Positions 1-16,543 of a stretch of DNA of 21,372 nt are shown piece by piece. Position numbers and translations under genes: made by a program. Origin of the DNA: a virus; the IMG/VR virus record IMGVR_UViG_3300034111_000658, positions 1-21,372 of that record. One strand, given 5' to 3'. Position 1 is the first letter of the stretch. Every line of letters starts with the position of its first letter. Below the pieces are notes generated by a model, which saw nothing but the letters and a program-made list of their open reading frames with translations, did not search any database and was not told the DNA's origin.

Positions 1-3000
1 GTTACACTACCCGCAAATTCATCATTACTATCATAGTTAATAGAATATTCACGTATTTTAGTTGAATATGGTTTAACTTCTGTGATGTAATTTTCATAAT
101 ACGTTTGATTATCTTTAATATAGTTTGGATATTGTAATAGCGAACGCAATTTATGTGATACACTAATAAAACTAGTTTTAAATAACCAATCTACATATTT
201 TTGTTCAGTTAACGCATAATTAATCATTACAAAAATTAGATTATTAAATTCAGCATCTAATTCACCGATAAAAATATCATCTTTAAGAGCGTTGATTATA
301 TGACGAATTTCTATAGTCGGAGTAGTAGGAATAACAGTATCATTGTTTGATGTTGTTAATTGTATTGTTCCATTCTGTCTGCCCACGATAGTATAAGCAA
401 GATCAGCCGCTACTGAAATAAGAGTCCAACCACTATTGCCACTACCAACCTTGACAAGTATATCATCACCAACAGCAACTGGTAATTTTAAAGCATCAGG
501 AAGTGTATCAACTACATAATCAAGTTGTATATCAGTAGGACTTACTCCTTCTGCGTACCAATCAACATAATTCCAATATAAAGAAGTTTTATACTGCTGG
601 ATTCGAGTTAGTGACCAAGTTTTAGTTGGAGATAATGTATAAACAGTCCATAGATTATTTTGGGTAGTATCTTGATTTACTAACACTGTATAACCTACAG
701 ATAATACATCAGTATCGAGATATGCCAATTCAATATCTGTATTAATTTTTAAATCACATTCGCCTAGATTAACATTGGGTTGTGCTTCCTGAGTATTAAG
801 TGTATTTAAATTACAGGTACTAACAATCGGTTTAGTTATTAAGATACTATTAACATAATCTACTAAACTGGCATAAGCTGTTGTTTTATCAACAAACATA
901 GTCTGCCGTGGGCGTACTCCTAATCCAAATTTACTAGCAGTACTAAGAGCAGGATCGGGTACTTCTGCCCCTAATATATCAATCCCAGCTAAACTATCAA
1001 TTAATTTATTAACAATTTTTGGAGATATTATACTATCTGCGTTACCTTTTTGTACTAGCTCGTATTCACTGTGAATAATATTAGTGTTCTTAACTGTGTT
1101 ATAGTCGACATGTAAAATAGTATTTTGTGCTGATAGATAATCGGCTATATTATATAGATTAATAACATTATTACTAACAATTGCAGCATAGGGGATACCT
1201 TGATTTTTAGGATTTTCGATTATATCTCGAATAGCCACAAGAGGTAGCTGTCTAGTTTTATTATTAGGATCAACTGTTGTTTTATCTTTAACCCAGAAAT
1301 AATATTTAATACTAATAATATTAGTAACTGGATCAACATATACTAATTCCGCATAAGCACTATCGTCGGCATATTTCGGAATACCTTCTCCGCCTCGAGC
1401 AACATACGTACTTGGTAAGTACGGACTTTCTACCCACTCTAATACCTCAACTGTTGAACCTGGGAATAGTCGCCCCCAATTAATGCTACGATATGTTACT
1501 GTATCTTGTTCGTAGTCAATGTAACTAAGTTGACTTAAGTTCCACCATACTTGTCCAACTTGATTACCGTTCCAGAATATATTATCATTTAAACTAACTG
1601 CGCTATTTGTTCCGCGATTATATATCGCCGGATCATATCCGGTTTTATATGCGATTTCTTGTTCTGCTCGGCCAAGTATTTTACCTTTTGCAGGATCAAT
1701 AAATTCTAAAGTTGTTAGAATAGTGTTTGACAGATTACTGTATAGATACATTCTATTAACTGATTCTATATCTACTGTCGGTTGTTGATATCTAATTAAA
1801 CTCCATCCACGTTTGTTTATTATATTATTAAACAGGTAAATACTGCCACCATCATTAATAGTAGTATCATCACTTGGTGCACTTACTATAATATAATCGC
1901 CGATTATATCGATTGCTGTACCAAAACCGTCGCCGGTGTTTAAATCAGTTGGATCAAGTTGTTGACAGAATGCATAACGTCCAGGATGTTCAACCATATC
2001 ACGAGGATCATCATATAATTCGTATGTGTACACACTACCGCTAACTTTGATACTATCAACAAAAGATGTAGAATCATCATCAATTACTGTAGTGTCATTA
2101 TCAAAGGTAGTAACAGTATTTGTTGTTCCGCGTTCGCTACTAATTACTAGCATATAGGCATTACGAGCCAATATAACTTTAGTACCAAAATATTCATTAT
2201 TGCTGTTATACGGATTAACAATAATCTGCATGAACGCAAATATAGCCAAGCCTGCGTCAGCATACACTGTACCACTGCCCGATAGAATACGTAAACGATT
2301 TTTAGCTACAGTTTTATCACTGTCTAATCTTAAGTATCCGTTTTCATTGACTGCGGTAATACCTAATAGATTGGCATCATTGATATCTTCGATTAAACTA
2401 TCTAAACTTGTACCAGTCACAGTAATCTGGAAGTTATCTAAACGAATTGTGTCGCCCGGAGTAAACGTTGGATTCTTAGTAAACCCTCTGTTGATACCAT
2501 ATAGCGTGCCCTTGTTATGGAATTTCCACACAGCACCAGTATTGTAAGCTGTACCGGAATTATAATAGGGAGCACCGATGTAGAAAGCACAATTATTTGA
2601 ACAGATAGTTAGGGCCGATCCAAATCGCGCTCCTTCCTGGATGGCACTTAAACTTCCGCCCAGGCTATCAATTCCGATTATTCTTTCTAATAGAGTAAAT
2701 TTGTTAGTTTCAATTTTTACATTTTTACCTACACCAAGCGGTACAGATAATGTTATTTCGTTTGCGCCAGTTACTGTATAATTAAATATTTCAATATCAT
2801 CAACAGTTACTTTATACACAGGAGCAATTGTTTCTACTGTGGTATATACTGTATCAGTTGTACTATTAAATGCTTCAATTACACGATCATATATATACAC
2901 TGCCCCAGCTTGTGCAAGTAAATCGCCGGTTGCGCCGATTACCCCATCAGCAGGAGCGCCAACACCGAGCTGTGCTCCGTTTAAACTTGCATCGATACAA

Positions 3001-6000
3001 AAACCAAATTCACTGCCCGCTGGTCCATTAATTGTTTCGACTAATGTATAATACGGGCCTTGTGAAATTGTAAGCGTATCATTAACGTTTCCAGATATAA
3101 ATGTTATTGTTGTTCCGGATAAGGTGTAATCAATATTTGGAATGTATGTACGTGTTTCGCTAGTAACTACTAATGAATTAGCATCATCAGTTACTTCGGG
3201 TGTAAATGGTACTGTGATAGATGATACAGATCCGGATGTAGTAACTGTCTCACTTTCCTCAGTTACAAATCGTTTTAAACCGTAGACATAAACTTTAGGA
3301 GTTGATTCATAAGGAGCACCAACATATAACCAGTGGCCTAATTCATCAAACGCAAAGCCGTGGCCAAATTGTCCGTTAGTGGCACTAACATTGCCTGCAA
3401 TAACTTGTCCTCTATTCCATACAGTTTCGCCTTCAAGTTTATTATAGGTATAGATTAAGCCAACATTAGCAGCACCGGCTAAACCAGAACTTGTTGGTGC
3501 GTTTGCGGCCATTCTTAGTTGTGTACCGTCAACTGCTGTGTCGATATGTGAACCATAGGTAAATGTATTAGCACCGTCTGGTGTTATAGTAGACGTTTTA
3601 CTGTAAGCATTTGATGTATTTTTATCAAATACACTTACAGCACCAGTACCGGCATATAAAGTCGTACCTACAAAAATAGTTTGTTCGGCATTGTCAATCA
3701 TTTTTAGTGCTTGGCCGAATCCATCATTGGCTGTATATTCAGTATCAACCGTTAATGAAGATACGGTAGTATTAGCTGGAAATATATTACTGTTATTAAC
3801 AGTCTGACTTGCTGCTACGTTTGCTACATTAGGGTTAAACATATCTACATTTGATATAATGCCAACAGCATTGCCTGTAATAGTTGTAATCCCAGTAACA
3901 ACATTACCTCCGATAGTTAATGTACTTGTGGCATTAGCTAGTGCTACATTACTAAATGTAATATACACATCATTTGTTTTTACTAAACGTTGAGTCACTC
4001 CCCATGGGTGTGTTTTTTCGTACACTTTCCAGGTACCGCTCGGTTGCGTACCAAATGGTTGACCCTGTACTGCTGTTGTTTCGGCATCCTCGTCGATCCA
4101 AATCTTTTCACCAACTTTCCATCCATTTGGCGGAACATATTCTCGGGCAGTTTCCATGTAGTTAAATCGTATACTGTCTAAAACAAACAATATACCGTCA
4201 CCGTCGAGTGTGGTTAATTGTGTTGTATCACCGGAGTACTTGACTAATATATTATTAAGATCAACTACACTTTCGACTTGGTAAAAACCATCAAATTCTG
4301 TAGTAAAACTACGGATTAGGAATATATCTCCGACAGATAAACTGTGTGGACTGTCTGTGGTAAATGTTACAAATCCATCAAGCGAGTTAGATACTAAAAA
4401 CACATGATTGTTAGTTTCTGTTACTCGATAAACATTCCAGTTTTGTGAAAAGTCTCTTGCGCACCAGATAGTATAGCCTGTGCCAATAGCATCTAATTGA
4501 TTATTTAAATCTGTAAAATTAGCAAGATCGAATATAGTAGTATCAACATCGTCAATATTTACATATCCAGCCTTTATGATATCATTCTCGTAATTACTAT
4601 AAGCATCTCTATTCAATGCTATTGTGCCGTTGTAAGAATTATTTGATTTGTATAATTGTGAACTATCAAATATATTCAAGCCATTGCCGCTAGTATTAGC
4701 TACGAATGTAGCAGAAACAGGATTAATTCCAAATGCTGATTCATCTAATACAATTTCTACATACGGGTTTGTATCTATTGCTCCATATTCACCTATACGT
4801 ATTGCCCATTCTTCGTAGAATTTTATATCACTACTTAGATTATTAAATTGTGCGTTAGATAATTGATTAACAGCATTGGCTGAGCCTTTTTGCTTGATAA
4901 ATCCTTTATATAATTCAATTTGTGTTGTATCACTTAAGCCAATATCTGTTAGATATTGTCGTGTGCTAAATCCAATCAATCCGTGACTGTATGTAATTTG
5001 GTCCGAATCTTTAAAGTTTGTATATGAATCGTAGTATGCTTGCGACTTAGTGGCAATAGTAGCAAAGTTTGGTAACAATCCTTTTTTAATTTCGCTAACA
5101 GAAAGTTGTTTCCACGAAGCAAAACTAAACTCAGTCGTTGCTGAAATATTCTGTAAAGCGACAAAATATTGATTTTTAAATTGTACTAAGGCACCTTTTA
5201 AATAATCTACGCCAGCTACCCACTCGTCAACTTGACCAGAATTGTATACAAAGCCCGGAGCATAAAGACTACCGTTCCATTCAGTTGTTTTTTGTCCGAT
5301 CAATTTTAATCTAAATTGTCTATTACCAAGCTCTGGTTTGTAAATAATATCATTAAACACTGTTGTATTATCAAATATTAAAACGTGTTCGTATTGTACC
5401 AAATTTAACTCGATATAGCCAATAACTGCATCATTAGTTAATGTCAATTTGAAAGTAGTGGGACTGCGTAATACATTATAGTTTGTATTTTTAACTAAAG
5501 CAAAATTCTGATCTAATACTTTAGAACCATACTGGCTATCTGTGATAGCATCTGTAATTGCTCCAACGGTAACGGCATTTATCACATTAGCCACTGGACT
5601 CAATACTAAGATACTACCAGGTGCCCAGCCTTGTTGTGCCCAAAATAAGAATTCTTTAGTCGACAATTTCCAATTACGAGTTTCGCCTAGTTGTTCATCT
5701 GTATCATTAAAGATAAACCCTTGGGCTATTAAATGTCTTTCGTAACTAATTAAAAAATCAGCTATTTGTTGTTGGCTATTAAATTCGTAACCATAAGGTA
5801 CTGTTAGTTTTAAATTTTGATAATCGTTAAACACCGTCACTGAATTGTTTAATACAGTAATTTTATATGCGTTTGTGTTTATAACACTTGGAATAATAGT
5901 GAAATACGGATTAGATAAATTATATCCGCGTACACTATATCCATTTGTTGTTTTTTCAATAATTACACCGCTATAGGTTATTTTACCGACCGGAGTTGAT

Positions 6001-9000
6001 TTATACAAATGTACATTATAGTTTTCATTTGGGATAACGATACTATCATTTGTGCTAGTTGGCGAATTTTGCTCTGCCAATACCTGAAGATATTTTTGAT
6101 CACTAAATCCGGCCATTTTGTAGGCAAGATTGACTTCATAATTTTTTAATAATGGAGTAATAACATTAGAAGGATTAATTCCTTGATTCACTAGGAAATC
6201 AGCGATCCAGTTTATATAGCCCGCTGTTCTAACCACAGTGCCCGATGATGTGTCACCGTTGAACGTCATTGATGTTTGTTTAATGTGATCGTTTGTATCA
6301 GTCAGATATTGATTTAATGTATTATTTTTTGAATATCGAGATATGTCCATTAATAAACCAAAATATCTAGCAGGTTTAGCTAAAGCAAGGGCCTGTTGTA
6401 CAGCATACGGGAAATTACTACTGATGCGCCAAGCCGCTTCGACCGGTCCTTGTTGCCCCACTGCCCAAGCTGTTGCAGCTCTAGTAGAATTGAAAGACGC
6501 AGTCATGATTGCTGCTGGGCTTAATAAAAGTCCATTGGCGTCTACAGGAATAACTGCTGATAATCCCGGACGAGCAAAAACAGTATCTATACCAGCACGT
6601 TCGCCGTATTTAATTAATCCTAGTTCTAGGTCATCCCATAGAAGTTTGTTACCGCCAGTATAAGGTGCAGGACCGTATTCTTCTACCCACCACGATGGCA
6701 TAGTAGAAAAACCTAACATTTCCCAAGGAGTCAAATGTGGACGTATTGTATCGTAGAAATATTGATAACATGCTCTCCAACTACCAGGCAATATTTCACC
6801 GTTAATTCTGTCAACAAAACGACTATAGTTCCACGTAAATGGATCATTGCTTTCAAATGTATCATTGACTGTAAAATCAATTTTGTTATTACCGATCCAA
6901 TTTAAGAAATTCTTAGATAATAATTGATTAACATCACCTATTGTATAATCACTTGTTCTGAATTTCCCTGGTATAACTGAATATACGTCTTGATAACTAC
7001 TAATGTTGTGCAATGTGATGTTATTGTAAATACGTTTTTCTAATTCTAATACAAAACTATCTCTGTAGTCATCAAATGCTGGAGTTATGCTGCCGTCATG
7101 TCCACGTATAACATTGATAGGTGTACGATACGTATCGTCTAAGAAGATCTCAGGAATAAATTTAGGATATAAGCCCAACTTACTCGGAGTCTCTGGTACA
7201 TAAGATCCATTGGTATCCGCATACTCTACAATTTTAACAATATCATCTACTTCTAAAGTAACAGTATTCTTAAATGTTATTGCCGGACGATCTGTATCAA
7301 ATGTATAATCTCTATCTAAGATTAATTGTACATCATTTAAATAAACAAGTACCGCAGTATTACCTAGAGTATAGGCGTCAAATACCGAAGTAATTTCATA
7401 TGAACGTACCAATGGGTCGAATATTGTATAACCTGTACCGTTAACAATATTTTTTAATGTACCGTATGGTACCATGTCACTGTAGAACCATGGGAATGTT
7501 TTGTTTTTAATCTTGTTAATTTCTGTTAAGATTAAATCCACACTGGCCACAGGATCAGTTGGTTGTATGCCTGATAGTGTAGCACTTAATTCTAAGAATT
7601 TATTTTTAAATCTAGCGTATTCTTGTTGCGCATAACGAATTGCATCGATAAAGTTTGTGCTGTCATTTAATAAAAACAGTGCGGCATTTGATATTGGCGC
7701 ACTATGTTGTAGTATGTTGCCGCCTTTTGATGTAATCTCGATATCTCTGAGATTACTTTCGCTAAGAACATCGCCAACAAGCTCAGTACTATTTTGACTC
7801 AACTCAATCAGATGATTTCTAAGTTGACCTAATGTTAACGATGTTAGGTTAATATTTTGAGCATTTAAATCTAAATTTTGTGGAACTTGATACTGACCAA
7901 GCGCACTTATATCATTACTAAAAATTAATATATCAATTTTATCACCTATAGAAGGTTCAGTAGCTAACGTCAACGCATTATTTGTCAGAGTCCACTGTGT
8001 TGTTTTTAAGAATGTGTTATTTTTATAAACTTTAACATGTGGAACAGACGTCGCCGCTGCTGGAGTAACATCAATTTTAAACGGACTATTCAACCCGTCA
8101 TATACGTATGTAATAAGTTGTTCATGATGTAGTATCTCAGTTGATTTCTTCCAAATATTAGTTGGAACTACTATATTTCTATCTATAATTTTTTGTAAAA
8201 ATCCAATGGAAATTTGACTAGTATATGCTATTTGATTGAGTATATAACTAAATTCATCTGTGTCAAAATAGTTAGAAAATTCAATATCGCCTTGTGTAAG
8301 GAATGTTCTGTATTTTAATGGAAATTTAAGTACAGGATCTACTACTGTACTTGTACTTGTTCTGTTATAGCCAAATAATTTTGTACCAGCAAATGTACTG
8401 TTAGTATAAAGAGATAAACTTGTTCCACTAGTGTCATACATATCAAACATCGGTTCTTGTTGTAGGCTAGTTTTTTGTTGGCTTTGTTCCCAAGTATCTC
8501 CATTATACCACCATTGCGTTCCTTTATACAATCCTGTTTTTACTACCACAGTATCATAAATTTCATTGTTAGCATCAGTGGCAGGATTTAAATTTATATA
8601 TACAGGTCCAGATGGCAATCCATTAATGTCAACAGCAAGTTGTACTAAATTAATTGTATAGATATTATCACGTACTACTGGGTCGATGTCATTAGCAAAT
8701 ATAATTCGCATGCCGTCAACTAAAGTAACTCCGCCTATAACAGTTAATACTTTTCCTTGTATATCTATTAACGCATTTTTTGTAGTTACATCTAAGATAT
8801 CAATAGGTTGTTTACCAATTCTACCATAGTTAAATAATTGTAAATTTGCGTCAAATTGTATAATCGGACGTCGCGCACGATAAGTTTGATCATATGTTAC
8901 AATCACGCCGTTATAATCAGCTGTGGCTTTGATTACATCTCGATGGAACCAACGGTTATTACGAGACCAAGCATTTAAATCTTTGCTACAACGATTAATT

Positions 9001-10553
9001 GTAATATATTCTGCATTAGATTCATTACCCGGTAATCCGTCTGGATAATTTAGTGCTAGTTCATCATTGTATAACTCGGAAGTAACTAACAATGACGCAT
9101 CAATTAATTGTATTCCAGTCGATGACCCTACACCCTCAACATAATATTCTTTATTTTGATAAGTTGCTGGAGTAACATCGGTGCTAAAACTTACTTTTAA
9201 TCCACTAGTGAATATAACTCCGTTAGGACTAGTGTAGTTAGATTTTCCTAATATGTCGTTTTCGACATCAATTTCCCAGCCGGCAATATCAATAAGTTTA
9301 ATTGTGCCGTAGATAGCTGGATTGCTACCGTCTTGGAAATATAATGTATCTTGTATACTTGAAATTACAGGAACAACATGGAAGAACTCATCGTAATCTT
9401 TAAAGAATTCTTTATTGGCATTAACAAGACCAGATCTGATGTATACTTTTTCGTTAAGCAAAACATCCTGAACATGTACCAAACGAATCAACGGATCGTC
9501 AATATTACCAATATCACTGAACTGTACTCTCCATACTCCGTAACGTTGCGTAGTCGAGATCACTGTACCGGCATCATATCCCGGAACAACTAGTCCAGTA
9601 ACTGGATCAATGACTTCGGGCATAGTCCACGCTTCTTCACCGCGATTTGTTAATAAATTTTGATTAACAAATATTGCAGTTTCACCATTAAGTTGACCAG
9701 TGATTCCTGCGTATGCCGGAAAGGCTGTGACAAATTGACTAACTGTGCTATTGTGAATATCTGCGAAAGCAAGTGGAACTGCGTATTCTACGCTAGCTAC
9801 TACATTCATTAACACATATCTATCTTGCGCATTTGCCTGCGGAACATTAAATGTAATGGTGCCGGTTTCAGCACCATTATTAATAACGCCAAGCACGTCT
9901 CGTGTACTAACTGTTGGTGTCGCATTTACTAGACCATCGACACCAAGTTCTGTTTGTATCCAGAAGCCAGAACCAAGTTGGTTAACTTCAAATGTGTATT
10001 GGCCGCCGCGAGCAAGTGTAATTGTATTCTTTATCTGGCCGCCGGTAGAAAAATCGTAACGAGCTGTAGTTGTATCACGAGTAACAGTAAATGTTTTTTC
10101 TAAATCGACCCCACTTGTATTAACATCAACAGGATCTAAACCATCAGCAAGCCAATAGTACTGTGTAAAGTTAACAAAATGGTCAAGTGATATGTGCGGA
10201 TCAAAGCTATAATATTCGGCTTCAAATAACTTAGCGTGATTTGGCGTTAGCCCGCTATAATATTCGAGTTTATTTAATAAATCAACATAACTAGCAAAAA
10301 ATGTAACTTCGTTTTGTTCATTGCGAACCACTATGCTCGGCTCAAGTTGATATTTTTGTCGTTCGGCCGAACTTTCGATTATATAACTATCATTACTTTT
10401 GTAGGTCGGCGCAAATGTTCTTCCGATATAGCCATATATATTTCTTAAATTTGGTTCAGTTACTAACTGATCCATTGTGGCCGACAAGAACTTATTGTTA
10501 ACGTCGGTTTGGAATATGCTAGGAAGTAAATTTGAAGTCTTTTTTATCGCCAT
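1..10553 (-). CDS. Giant virion structural protein (baseplate/tail periphery), 3' end outside window
   Basis: Reading from the ATG at 10553-10551 I find no in-frame stop down to base 1, giving at least 3,517 codons; the C-terminus is missing. The start begins MAIKKTSNLLPSIF, 30 bases after the gp6 stop, with only a weak GAG ribosome-binding site. Visible parts: an N-terminal region (about 1-150) rich in aromatic residues; a PWEMLGF...PSWW segment near 1276-1290; a WKVYEKTHPW segment near 2175-2184; seven FG-GAP repeats from 2279 to about 2910; four fibre-type beta repeats; and near 3446-3478 a segment containing KYVDWLFKTSF. No signal peptide or membrane segment is seen. From memory, these segments resemble the very large, poorly characterised structural proteins of marine T4-like myoviruses. 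Its place directly after gp6 is that of T4 gp7 or Afp12, so a wedge-linked or peripheral baseplate role is inferred. A tail-fibre or host-recognition role is the main alternative. The coding call is near certain; the function is not. Confidence 0.93.
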   Translation of the reverse strand, partial: MAIKKTSNLLPSIFQTDVNNKFLSATMDQLVTEPNLRNIYGYIGRTFAPTYKSNDSYIIESSAERQKYQLEPSIVVRNEQNEVTFFASYVDLLNKLEYYSGLTPNHAKLFEAEYYSFDPHISLDHFVNFTQYYWLADGLDPVDVNTSGVDLEKTFTVTRDTTTARYDFSTGGQIKNTITLARGGQYTFEVNQLGSGFWIQTELGVDGLVNATPTVSTRDVLGVINNGAETGTITFNVPQANAQDRYVLMNVVASVEYAVPLAFADIHNSTVSQFVTAFPAYAGITGQLNGETAIFVNQNLLTNRGEEAWTMPEVIDPVTGLVVPGYDAGTVISTTQRYGVWRVQFSDIGNIDDPLIRLVHVQDVLLNEKVYIRSGLVNANKEFFKDYDEFFHVVPVISSIQDTLYFQDGSNPAIYGTIKLIDIAGWEIDVENDILGKSNYTSPNGVIFTSGLKVSFSTDVTPATYQNKEYYVEGVGSSTGIQLIDASLLVTSELYNDELALNYPDGLPGNESNAEYITINRCSKDLNAWSRNNRWFHRDVIKATADYNGVIVTYDQTYRARRPIIQFDANLQLFNYGRIGKQPIDILDVTTKNALIDIQGKVLTVIGGVTLVDGMRIIFANDIDPVVRDNIYTINLVQLAVDINGLPSGPVYINLNPATDANNEIYDTVVVKTGLYKGTQWWYNGDTWEQSQQKTSLQQEPMFDMYDTSGTSLSLYTNSTFAGTKLFGYNRTSTSTVVDPVLKFPLKYRTFLTQGDIEFSNYFDTDEFSYILNQIAYTSQISIGFLQKIIDRNIVVPTNIWKKSTEILHHEQLITYVYDGLNSPFKIDVTPAAATSVPHVKVYKNNTFLKTTQWTLTNNALTLATEPSIGDKIDILIFSNDISALGQYQVPQNLDLNAQNINLTSLTLGQLRNHLIELSQNSTELVGDVLSESNLRDIEITSKGGNILQHSAPISNAALFLLNDSTNFIDAIRYAQQEYARFKNKFLELSATLSGIQPTDPVASVDLILTEINKIKNKTFPWFYSDMVPYGTLKNIVNGTGYTIFDPLVRSYEITSVFDAYTLGNTAVLVYLNDVQLILDRDYTFDTDRPAITFKNTVTLEVDDIVKIVEYADTNGSYVPETPSKLGLYPKFIPEIFLDDTYRTPINVIRGHDGSITPAFDDYRDSFVLELEKRIYNNITLHNISSYQDVYSVIPGKFRTSDYTIGDVNQLLSKNFLNWIGNNKIDFTVNDTFESNDPFTWNYSRFVDRINGEILPGSWRACYQYFYDTIRPHLTPWEMLGFSTMPSWWVEEYGPAPYTGGNKLLWDDLELGLIKYGERAGIDTVFARPGLSAVIPVDANGLLLSPAAIMTASFNSTRAATAWAVGQQGPVEAAWRISSNFPYAVQQALALAKPARYFGLLMDISRYSKNNTLNQYLTDTNDHIKQTSMTFNGDTSSGTVVRTAGYINWIADFLVNQGINPSNVITPLLKNYEVNLAYKMAGFSDQKYLQVLAEQNSPTSTNDSIVIPNENYNVHLYKSTPVGKITYSGVIIEKTTNGYSVRGYNLSNPYFTIIPSVINTNAYKITVLNNSVTVFNDYQNLKLTVPYGYEFNSQQQIADFLISYERHLIAQGFIFNDTDEQLGETRNWKLSTKEFLFWAQQGWAPGSILVLSPVANVINAVTVGAITDAITDSQYGSKVLDQNFALVKNTNYNVLRSPTTFKLTLTNDAVIGYIELNLVQYEHVLIFDNTTVFNDIIYKPELGNRQFRLKLIGQKTTEWNGSLYAPGFVYNSGQVDEWVAGVDYLKGALVQFKNQYFVALQNISATTEFSFASWKQLSVSEIKKGLLPNFATIATKSQAYYDSYTNFKDSDQITYSHGLIGFSTRQYLTDIGLSDTTQIELYKGFIKQKGSANAVNQLSNAQFNNLSSDIKFYEEWAIRIGEYGAIDTNPYVEIVLDESAFGINPVSATFVANTSGNGLNIFDSSQLYKSNNSYNGTIALNRDAYSNYENDIIKAGYVNIDDVDTTIFDLANFTDLNNQLDAIGTGYTIWCARDFSQNWNVYRVTETNNHVFLVSNSLDGFVTFTTDSPHSLSVGDIFLIRSFTTEFDGFYQVESVVDLNNILVKYSGDTTQLTTLDGDGILFVLDSIRFNYMETAREYVPPNGWKVGEKIWIDEDAETTAVQGQPFGTQPSGTWKVYEKTHPWGVTQRLVKTNDVYITFSNVALANATSTLTIGGNVVTGITTITGNAVGIISNVDMFNPNVANVAASQTVNNSNIFPANTTVSSLTVDTEYTANDGFGQALKMIDNAEQTIFVGTTLYAGTGAVSVFDKNTSNAYSKTSTITPDGANTFTYGSHIDTAVDGTQLRMAANAPTSSGLAGAANVGLIYTYNKLEGETVWNRGQVIAGNVSATNGQFGHGFAFDELGHWLYVGAPYESTPKVYVYGLKRFVTEESETVTTSGSVSSITVPFTPEVTDDANSLVVTSETRTYIPNIDYTLSGTTITFISGNVNDTLTISQGPYYTLVETINGPAGSEFGFCIDASLNGAQLGVGAPADGVIGATGDLLAQAGAVYIYDRVIEAFNSTTDTVYTTVETIAPVYKVTVDDIEIFNYTVTGANEITLSVPLGVGKNVKIETNKFTLLERIIGIDSLGGSLSAIQEGARFGSALTICSNNCAFYIGAPYYNSGTAYNTGAVWKFHNKGTLYGINRGFTKNPTFTPGDTIRLDNFQITVTGTSLDSLIEDINDANLLGITAVNENGYLRLDSDKTVAKNRLRILSGSGTVYADAGLAIFAFMQIIVNPYNSNNEYFGTKVILARNAYMLVISSERGTTNTVTTFDNDTTVIDDDSTSFVDSIKVSGSVYTYELYDDPRDMVEHPGRYAFCQQLDPTDLNTGDGFGTAIDIIGDYIIVSAPSDDTTINDGGSIYLFNNIINKRGWSLIRYQQPTVDIESVNRMYLYSNLSNTILTTLEFIDPAKGKILGRAEQEIAYKTGYDPAIYNRGTNSAVSLNDNIFWNGNQVGQVWWNLSQLSYIDYEQDTVTYRSINWGRLFPGSTVEVLEWVESPYLPSTYVARGGEGIPKYADDSAYAELVYVDPVTNIISIKYYFWVKDKTTVDPNNKTRQLPLVAIRDIIENPKNQGIPYAAIVSNNVINLYNIADYLSAQNTILHVDYNTVKNTNIIHSEYELVQKGNADSIISPKIVNKLIDSLAGIDILGAEVPDPALSTASKFGLGVRPRQTMFVDKTTAYASLVDYVNSILITKPIVSTCNLNTLNTQEAQPNVNLGECDLKINTDIELAYLDTDVLSVGYTVLVNQDTTQNNLWTVYTLSPTKTWSLTRIQQYKTSLYWNYVDWYAEGVSPTDIQLDYVVDTLPDALKLPVAVGDDILVKVGSGNSGWTLISVAADLAYTIVGRQNGTIQLTTSNNDTVIPTTPTIEIRHIINALKDDIFIGELDAEFNNLIFVMINYALTEQKYVDWLFKTSFISVSHKLRSLLQYPNYIKDNQTYYENYITEVKPYSTKIREYSINYDSNDEFAGSV
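1824..3719 (-). repeat. Seven FG-GAP repeats (predicted integrin-type beta-propeller) inside the giant protein
   Basis: Within the giant ORF, seven segments follow the pattern FG-x-x(5-12)-[VI]-[GS]-A-P-x(n)-G-x-[VI]-Y-x-[YF]. They begin at residues 2279 (FGQALKMID), 2333 (YGSHIDTAV), 2396 (FGHGFAFDE), 2516 (FGFCIDASL), 2644 (FGSALTICS), 2789 (FGTKVILAR) and 2877 (FGTAIDIIG). Repeats 3, 4 and 5 keep GAP exactly (YVGAPYES, GVGAPADG, YIGAPYYN); repeat 7 has SAP; repeats 1 and 6 are degenerate. The first three are spaced 54 and 63 residues apart, as expected for propeller blades. Later spacings (120, 128, 145, 88) imply inserted domains, two of which look like fibre-type beta repeats. FG-GAP repeats form the seven-bladed propeller of integrin alpha subunits; the fold here is inferred from repeat number and pattern. 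Confidence 0.75.
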
Positions 10554-14404: not shown

Positions 14405-16543
14405 TTATCCTGCCCTGAGTGTCGCAACTTTTGGCGCCATTACAGCAATAGCATATTTTCCTTTCTGATAATAACTTGCTCCTGAAGTTCCATTATTAAT
14501 ATCAGCACCAACACCGGTACGTGCAAATGTATTTGCTCCGCCTGCGCCTAACATATGAGCTGTCATTAGTAATCCACCGATTTCTTCTTTTGAAGTTTCT
14601 GTTGTGATTGTTTTTTTAGCAACTAATGTATTATAATTAGCTTTAGTAAAGTTATAGATTGCCTGCTCTTGTAGTGCGGGCGTATTAAGAAACTTATCAC
14701 GACTTAATCCGTTTAACCACATGGCATCATTGCCCAATGTTGCAGTGCCTTGGCAATGACTAGCAACGAAGCCGGCTTGTTGCAATGCCTGAAAACCCAT
14801 CTGATATTTTCCTAAAAATCCGCATTGATTAATTGCCTCGTATCCTGCCTTACCATTTTGCAGCCTCGGTGAGTAAGAACGCGGAACTTTACAGTCTACA
14901 TTCATTGGTGTAGCGGCACTGCTTTCACTTTTTGCAATTTGCGCCAATAAAGCAATTACTTCATCTTTACTCAATGGTCCAATTACACCAACACCGTCAG
15001 CATTAATAAGTTGATCTCTAATATTTTTTTCAGTTAACTGACCCGATACTCCTGTTAAATCTTTATATGCTGGTTTAAAATTAGGACTGCCCACCGGAGT
15101 TGATAGCGTCGGTACCTCTGTGACTTTTTCACCGCGATTGAATGGTTCGTGTGTTGGAGCGACAGCAACAATTGATGTTAATTTTCCTGAAGGTACATAA
15201 ACTCCATTGTTGTTAAGTGCCACATCGGAAAAAGTATGTGATGGTATTGGGTTAGGTTTTTTAACTGTTTTTGCGCCACCGCTATTCTGTTTAATTAGCG
15301 CACCTGTATGTGCTATGTCGCCGGTTGAGTTCATTGATATACTACCAGTATCGACATTAACTTCAGTACTACTTTGTAAGCCAATTGCGCCGCCAGCACC
15401 TACAGTAACTACACCATTGGATAGCAGATTAAAACTAGCACAATCAATTTGAAATTTGTTGCCAGCATTTAAATTGATATTATTAGCGGCATTGAGATTT
15501 ATGTTAGTATCCGAATGTAAATTAATAGATCCTTCGCTTCTAACATTAAATCCTGATTGTGAATATATATGTATTTGACCATCACTTGACAACTCAACCC
15601 AACTTTTTCCAGTCTTGTGTGAAATGTACAAAGTATTATTTGTATCATTCATCATAATTTGATGACCACTAGCAGTGCGTAATCTTATTAATTGATTTTC
15701 AGCAATAGCATTACCGTCATCCATAACAAACGTATGGCCACCCTTACGAGTTGTATAACGATAATCGTCTTCGGTTAATGTACCAGCTAGTACTTTAGCA
15801 TTATATAGTTCAACGTTATCGGCAGGATCACCATCATAAGGTCTCCCCGGAGTACTAATACCGAATACATTGCTCGGACTTTCGCGTTGACTACTACTTG
15901 TAATAGTACCACGAGCTGTATCTCTATCTAACCCCTGCGCTTTTAATATAGAATACTGTTCTTCATGTATTGGTTTAGGGTTATCAATAAAATTTGGGTT
16001 TGCTTTTGTAATAGGATCAATTTCGTTATATTCTACAACTGGTGCTGTAATACCTGGTTGATATGATTTTTTAGTAGAGTCGCTAGATCCGCTTGGGTCA
16101 ATCTTATTACTGCTGGCTAATCCTGGCATCATGTGTCGACTAACATGTGAGTTAACACAGGCAATAAAATATCCACGTAACGGGTCACCTGCAATGAATA
16201 TTACAATTACTTCGACTCCGATATCCGGTGGTACCATCCACATACCATAGGTGTGCGGTACATTTCTAAACTTATTATCACTATTGGGTTTGTTTGCGTA
16301 TTTTGATGCAATATCGGTGGTTCCCATAAACGGGCTAGCATAGCTGACTGTACGCCAGTTTTTTGGCTCATCGGGATTACCACCTAGATCCGGAATATAA
16401 ACTTGTAGTCTACCTGCTCGTGTAGGATCTAAATTGTTTTTAACAATACCTATATATGGATGTGGGTCAACTCTAGTAGCAGCGGCATCTTCTCTACGAA
16501 AATGTTTGACTACCTTACTACCAACTCTGTGATCTATTGCCAT
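14405..16543 (-). CDS. 5: Baseplate spike, gp5/VgrG-like, with C-terminal lysozyme-like domain
   Basis: A 712-residue central spike protein. Residues about 28-138 form the gp5-type OB fold (IGIVKNNLDPTRAGRLQVYI, then WMVPPDIGVEVIVIFIAGDP), which sits on the hub. Around 270-320 is the typical join to the needle (LIRLRTASGHQIMMNDTNNT). About 325-430 has short alternating strands (INLHSDTNINLNAANNINLN), the pattern of the gp5/VgrG triple-stranded beta-helix. After a Pro-rich linker, residues about 505-712 look like a lysozyme or transglycosylase domain: a helix followed by Glu540 in KSESSA and a GFLGKYQMG motif at 575-583, typical of muramidase-type enzymes that cleave peptidoglycan during injection. 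Glu540 as catalyst is inferred. In T4 gp5 the lysozyme lies between the OB fold and the helix; here it follows the helix. Start supported by AAGGAAA at 16551-16557. Confidence 0.9.
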   Translation of the reverse strand: MAIDHRVGSKVVKHFRREDAAATRVDPHPYIGIVKNNLDPTRAGRLQVYIPDLGGNPDEPKNWRTVSYASPFMGTTDIASKYANKPNSDNKFRNVPHTYGMWMVPPDIGVEVIVIFIAGDPLRGYFIACVNSHVSRHMMPGLASSNKIDPSGSSDSTKKSYQPGITAPVVEYNEIDPITKANPNFIDNPKPIHEEQYSILKAQGLDRDTARGTITSSSQRESPSNVFGISTPGRPYDGDPADNVELYNAKVLAGTLTEDDYRYTTRKGGHTFVMDDGNAIAENQLIRLRTASGHQIMMNDTNNTLYISHKTGKSWVELSSDGQIHIYSQSGFNVRSEGSINLHSDTNINLNAANNINLNAGNKFQIDCASFNLLSNGVVTVGAGGAIGLQSSTEVNVDTGSISMNSTGDIAHTGALIKQNSGGAKTVKKPNPIPSHTFSDVALNNNGVYVPSGKLTSIVAVAPTHEPFNRGEKVTEVPTLSTPVGSPNFKPAYKDLTGVSGQLTEKNIRDQLINADGVGVIGPLSKDEVIALLAQIAKSESSAATPMNVDCKVPRSYSPRLQNGKAGYEAINQCGFLGKYQMGFQALQQAGFVASHCQGTATLGNDAMWLNGLSRDKFLNTPALQEQAIYNFTKANYNTLVAKKTITTETSKEEIGGLLMTAHMLGAGGANTFARTGVGADINNGTSGASYYQKGKYAIAVMAPKVATLRAG

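Follow-up and report, generated by a model that had tools for sequence, protein, structure and literature searches.

A predicted seven-bladed FG-GAP propeller within a giant gp7-position baseplate protein of uncultured jumbo-type phages

Beta-propellers at the baseplate periphery of tailed phages have been described, such as the receptor-binding propeller of phi11 gp45 and the seven-bladed propeller of PhiKZ gp131, and a part in receptor binding was suggested for both (PMC4901313). Phage virion proteins with FG-GAP propellers are also already present in the databases. Residues 1544-2006 of the examined part of the 7000-aa virion protein of cyanophage S-MbCM6 (L209) contain FG-GAP_2 repeats (E=6e-40) and, nearby, a concanavalin-like domain. 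In the open-licence literature, no paper was found that pairs FG-GAP with a phage baseplate, a jumbo phage or (relevantly) a cyanophage. A third group comprises the giant proteins of PHROG 10938 from jumbo myophages (the PA5oct group, CBB_236, Atu_ph07 and SCTP-2).

The locus analyzed here shared its gene position, a conserved body and approximately 25-40% identity in aligned blocks with the PHROG 10938 proteins, whereas the six cultured proteins examined had no propeller at the corresponding site. The predicted propeller was a domain within a giant gp7-position protein, unlike phi11 gp45, which is five-bladed and is a separate fibre/spike protein. PhiKZ gp131C is seven-bladed as well, but it is also a separate fibre/spike protein and was missing from the 50 listed Foldseek matches, all of which were integrins. 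The FG-GAP_2 repeats were shared with S-MbCM6, but that phage belongs to Kyanoviridae, and only a single local match (E=0.5), lying inside the FG-GAP region, was obtained.

The giant protein and its FG-GAP units

The window was a 21,372-nucleotide stretch of viral DNA (IMG/VR record IMGVR_UViG_3300034111_000658). An open reading frame at 3..10553 (-) encoded a giant virion protein, of which 3517 aa lay inside the window, and continued past the window edge (>3517 aa). The whole protein was 4322 aa long in the loci L001 and L029, and the full gene was taken from L001, which comes from a longer contig 99.95% identical to the window across 13.9 kb. The body of the window protein matched the profile of PHROG 10938 (virion structural protein) with E=0 and 1206 bits.

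Genes of gp53- and gp5-like proteins were found upstream, those of gp25- and gp6-like proteins just before the giant gene, which directly followed the gp6-like gene as gene 7 does in T4 (order 6-7-8). Based on these neighbours, it was concluded that the giant gene occupies the T4 gene 7 position. Homology to T4 gp7 was undetectable by sequence (the hhalign comparison of a seven-member family with T4 gp7 gave a probability of 0.1), and a structural relation of the two proteins is possible. The first-pass annotation had assigned the repeats to a baseplate protein. This assignment agreed with the operon and with the cultured homologue CBB_236, which was detected in virions by mass spectrometry with 21 peptides (PMC5259590).

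The repeats were located at 1824-3719 (-), corresponding to residues 2279-2910 of the protein, a span that opens with the first F-G and closes with the third strand of unit 7. Seven [FY]G units began at residues 2279, 2333, 2396, 2516, 2644, 2789 and 2877. Unit 1 (strands A-B-C, residues 2277-2311, 3621..3725), unit 2 (2333-2374, 3432..3557), unit 3 (2396-2428, 3270..3368), unit 4 (2516-2562, 2868..3008) and unit 5 (2644-2681, 2511..2624), all on the (-) strand, were assigned by reading of the units, the structural model and a cross-match of unit profiles; unit 5 was also among the most conserved. Unit 6 (2789-2846, 2016..2189 (-)), including a 30-aa loop between strands B and C (nucleotides 2043-2132), was assigned by reading and the model, and unit 7 (2877-2910, 1824..1925 (-)) by Pfam, the model and the cross-match.

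Only unit 7 passed the Pfam cut-off in the window sequence alone (FG-GAP_2, E=6e-8), and FG-GAP_2 was matched by all 49 aligned relatives, with a best value of 7e-25. Profiles built per unit from these 49 family members recognised other units of the same proteins with up to 28 bits, when shuffled copies reached at most 8 bits and rarely more than 5; unit 6 was the weakest in this comparison (best 7 bits). A compact array of seven units was counted by eye in each of the most distant relatives, L198 and L202. The number of seven units given in the first-pass annotation was borne out by the [FY]G starts, the cross-match above shuffles and these compact arrays, and the repeat observation was confirmed.

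Some further features of the giant protein and its neighbours were recorded. The giant gene of L023/L085 (IMGVR_UViG_3300008259_000310) consisted of two overlapping frames of 1126 and 3186 codons, at approximately 5050-5135 in L023, which is a frameshift, either real or made by the assembly. The C-terminal end (residues 565-699) of the gp5-like hub protein (14405-16543 (-)) matched a PHROG named tail lysozyme, and no lysozyme domain was among the Pfam matches to this end. Relatives of the giant protein repeatedly showed a weak match to carbohydrate-binding module 5/12, under the Pfam cut-off, within their conserved body, for example at residues 1293-1324 of L109, 1272-1300 of L107 and 1508-1531 of L202. 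A stretch of similar look was present near residue 1780 of the window protein, where Pfam gave no match.

Predicted fold and inserts within the blades

The single-sequence AlphaFold model of the stretch was uninformative (pLDDT 30.6). The region was refolded by AlphaFold2 with the 49 aligned relatives, and the resulting model had a pLDDT of 75.8 and a pTM of 0.77, with D-A-B-C strands surrounding the FG units as assigned by DSSP. Several segments near blades 6-7 and at the flanks of the model had pLDDT values below 50. The Foldseek search of the model against the PDB gave 134 matches at E<=0.001 (best E=1.4e-9), and all 50 matches listed of these 134 were integrin alpha heads. Several alignments extended over approximately 700 columns (up to 714) on the 450-residue integrin heads, with TM by target length of up to 0.59; the RMSD was 7-13 Å in most long alignments, thus the blade geometry and packing are approximate. 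By sequence, the family profile found integrin alpha-6 (E=1.7e-7), as well as alpha-4, alpha-M and alpha-IIb. A viral library added FG-GAP proteins of other phages and of giant viruses, including an Atu_ph07 'hemagglutinin' as well as a virion protein of S-TIM5.

The strand preceding unit 1 (D0, WGVTQRLVKT, residues 2184-2193, 3975..4004 (-)) was present in the model and fitted the D pattern seen before each FG unit. We proposed that this leading strand would close blade 7 in the manner of the integrin N-terminal strand, which fits the strand register; the Foldseek match together with the register would be consistent with a closed ring. The integrin-alpha-type propeller suggested from the sequence was upheld by the model, the fold search and the family profile, and both the integrin-type fold and its insertion into the giant protein are well supported. 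The likeness to integrin alpha propellers comprised the seven FG-GAP units, the predicted fold, the sequence similarity and the D-A-B-C register with its leading D strand. The differences were the large C-D inserts, the location in a virion protein with no known beta-subunit partner and the calcium motif. The motif D-x-[DN]-x-[DN]-G was absent in 47 of the 49 members, with isolated matches only in L020 and L079, and the DxDxDG-type sites that integrins have in the A-B loops of blades 4-7 were not a feature of this family.

Two other assignments of the repeats were considered. The FG-GAP-like units might belong to separate beta domains that form no single ring, as the weak single-sequence signal and the large inserts would allow, but the integrin matches covered whole heads and the arrays of L198 and L202 were compact with seven units, which makes this explanation the least probable of all. 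The propeller might also be a carbohydrate-active enzyme of the sialidase- or lyase-like type that degrades a host surface polymer; some phage enzymes, e.g. endosialidases, do use propellers (PMC4901313). We regard an enzyme as very improbable, since the fold and sequence matches were of the integrin type, neither sialidase nor lyase, and Pfam gave no enzyme family. A sialidase- or lyase-type propeller was rejected because the listed Foldseek matches were all integrins.

Uneven spacing of the units with extra domains between blades 3-4, 4-5 and 5-6 had been described in the first-pass annotation. The spacing was correct, but in the DSSP assignment strands C and D of blades 3, 4 and 5 were the ones separated by large inserts, and a D strand followed each insert ahead of the next FG unit, so that the inserts lie within the blades and not between them. 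The blade 3 insert (residues 2429-2499, 3057..3269 (-); model and loop lengths) varied from 73 to 248 aa among relatives, the blade 4 insert (2563-2616, 2706..2867 (-); model and loop lengths) was near constant in size and the blade 5 insert (2682-2770, 2244..2510 (-); loop lengths) varied from 91 to 351 aa. As the deepest carriers had compact seven-unit arrays, the large inserts seem to have been added later. By eye, the blade 5 insert resembled Flagellin_IN; this Pfam family was matched in two of the 49 members (E=2e-5, position in the protein not given).

Insertion site and distribution

The left edge of the insertion site was W-K-V-G-E-K-I-W-I-D ... W-K-V-Y-E-K (residues 2145-2181, 4011..4121 (-)), with an equivalent W-x-V strand in empty-site relatives. 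The right edge, WSLIRYQQP...VNRMYLY...FIDPAKGKILG (2917-2980, 1614..1805 (-)), aligned with W-x-x-I-R-x-Q...DPxKGxIPG of the propeller-free relatives. Both sides were alignable and the propeller was missing in Cassandra, CBB, Vibrio 2.275.O, SCTP-2, Phosso and Atu_ph07. The short edges were aligned by eye. In Phosso, Cassandra, SCTP-2 and the environmental L201 and L206, the edges were joined, a W-x-V strand being followed by the x-x-I-R-x-Q-type strand and DPxKG. Therefore, the insert splits a pre-existing hairpin, W-x-V-Y-x-x / W-x-x-I-R-x-Q, which is still unsplit in these relatives. Between the flank markers, approximately 1500 aa of other sequence were found in Atu_ph07 and Phosso, and 200-310 aa in Cassandra and CBB. 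Inspection by eye of the same region revealed a LamG-like-looking insert at residues ~2120-2340 of SCTP-2 (L108) and long glycine-rich repeats at ~1715-3160 of Phosso (L109).

The distribution was assessed by sampling related loci from a conserved stretch approximately 800 residues upstream, leaving the propeller itself unused. Among the 58 related loci with both edges, propeller units were present in 56 and absent from two. In a tree built from the conserved parts, 52 carriers were separated from eight non-carriers (six of them cultured) by one branch with a support of 1.0, and the propeller was retained although the carrier clade diverges deeply. Cultured phages gave no match when searched with the propeller at the DNA and protein levels, because the isolates lack it. 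A single gain would depend on how the tree is rooted, the midpoint rooting being compatible with a gain as well as with a loss; owing to the clean empty site, the gain (or loss) is open to a direct test. Jumbo-type phages in nature have a baseplate domain missing from the cultured relatives examined, so the picture based on isolates is incomplete.

Recurrent modules and the proposed role

Loop lengths at CD3 and CD5 rose in steps of approximately 75 aa among relatives. A profile seeded with three loops defined the first module family, which occupied loops BC1, CD1, CD3, CD4, CD5 and BC7 of the propeller and also occurred in the protein's C-terminal arm, with zero matches in reversed and window-shuffled controls. 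At least one copy was present in the propeller of 38 of the 49 members and none in the window's own propeller. The latter carried a second family, the optional N-module in the D0-A1 loop (residues 2193-2272, 3738..3977 (-)), present in four of the 49 members, the loop being approximately 4 aa in the other 45; a second copy of this module was found in the C-terminal arm of L068. At the DNA level, the CD1 module of L047 shared 85% identity with the module in the C-terminal arm of L036, a different phage. Related phages had variable inserts, as seen from both the loop lengths and the modules; such a comparison had been proposed in the first-pass annotation. The modules had no match in PHROGs or in a tblastn search of cultured phages. 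Weak matches were set aside (PDB, best E=0.02; Pfam DUF5649, best E=0.003). The module alignment was too divergent to scan viral contigs by pattern, and a search with a single module gave mostly contigs already known.

It was proposed, as the somewhat favoured reading, that a seven-bladed FG-GAP propeller is inserted in a hairpin of the gp7-position protein of uncultured jumbo-type phages and serves as a tail-tip platform displaying loops and modules to the host envelope. The ends of the propeller would lie close together, so that the domain could fit in a loop and leave the protein carrying it undisturbed. A stable propeller at the tail tip would then present the host envelope with small modules and loops that can be exchanged. 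The most conserved part, blades 4-6 with their fixed inserts, may be where the domain docks onto the other baseplate components; the remaining loops would accept the optional modules of ~75 aa, which also occur in the C-terminal arm, and these would bind. Surface exposure and orientation of the propeller are presumed in this proposal, as is the glycan or protein binding suggested in the first-pass annotation, and host-surface binding or display is the likeliest role judging by its position and by the phi11 and PhiKZ propellers. By canonical propeller topology, the C-D hairpins, which bear the largest inserts, would be on the tether face and hence would not be distal tips, which counts against display; distal tips would be formed by the optional inserts at B-C and D0-A1.

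The main rival to a display platform is docking or scaffolding, in which the propeller would be an internal part that widens the baseplate or anchors a fibre or spike and the modules a tolerated decoration with no binding role. This is quite possible, although not preferred by us. Integrin propellers bind a partner subunit, and the retention of the propeller throughout the carrier clade fits such a part. For strands A, B and C, conservation was 0.86-0.95 in blades 5-6 versus 0.65-0.77 in blades 1-2, and blades 4-6 with the loop YDDPRxxVExPGRY were almost invariant over the 49 relatives. However, the other half of the propeller was variable, with modules gained and lost among close relatives, and relatives build baseplates without it. 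Such baseplates can do without the propeller, since the cultured relatives that lack it are infectious.

An extension of the display platform was put forward more tentatively, and we hold it as rather doubtful: a large clade of uncultured jumbo phages would have received the propeller in a single acquisition by its ancestor, the propeller becoming a chassis for orphan modules swapped between the loops and the C-terminal arm, and altering host-surface binding with no change of fibres. If true, such phages would possess a built-in means of changing host-surface binding while the fibres stay unchanged. From the module families that are shared, it seems that a single virion protein diversifies internally, in a manner that could be tied to host range.
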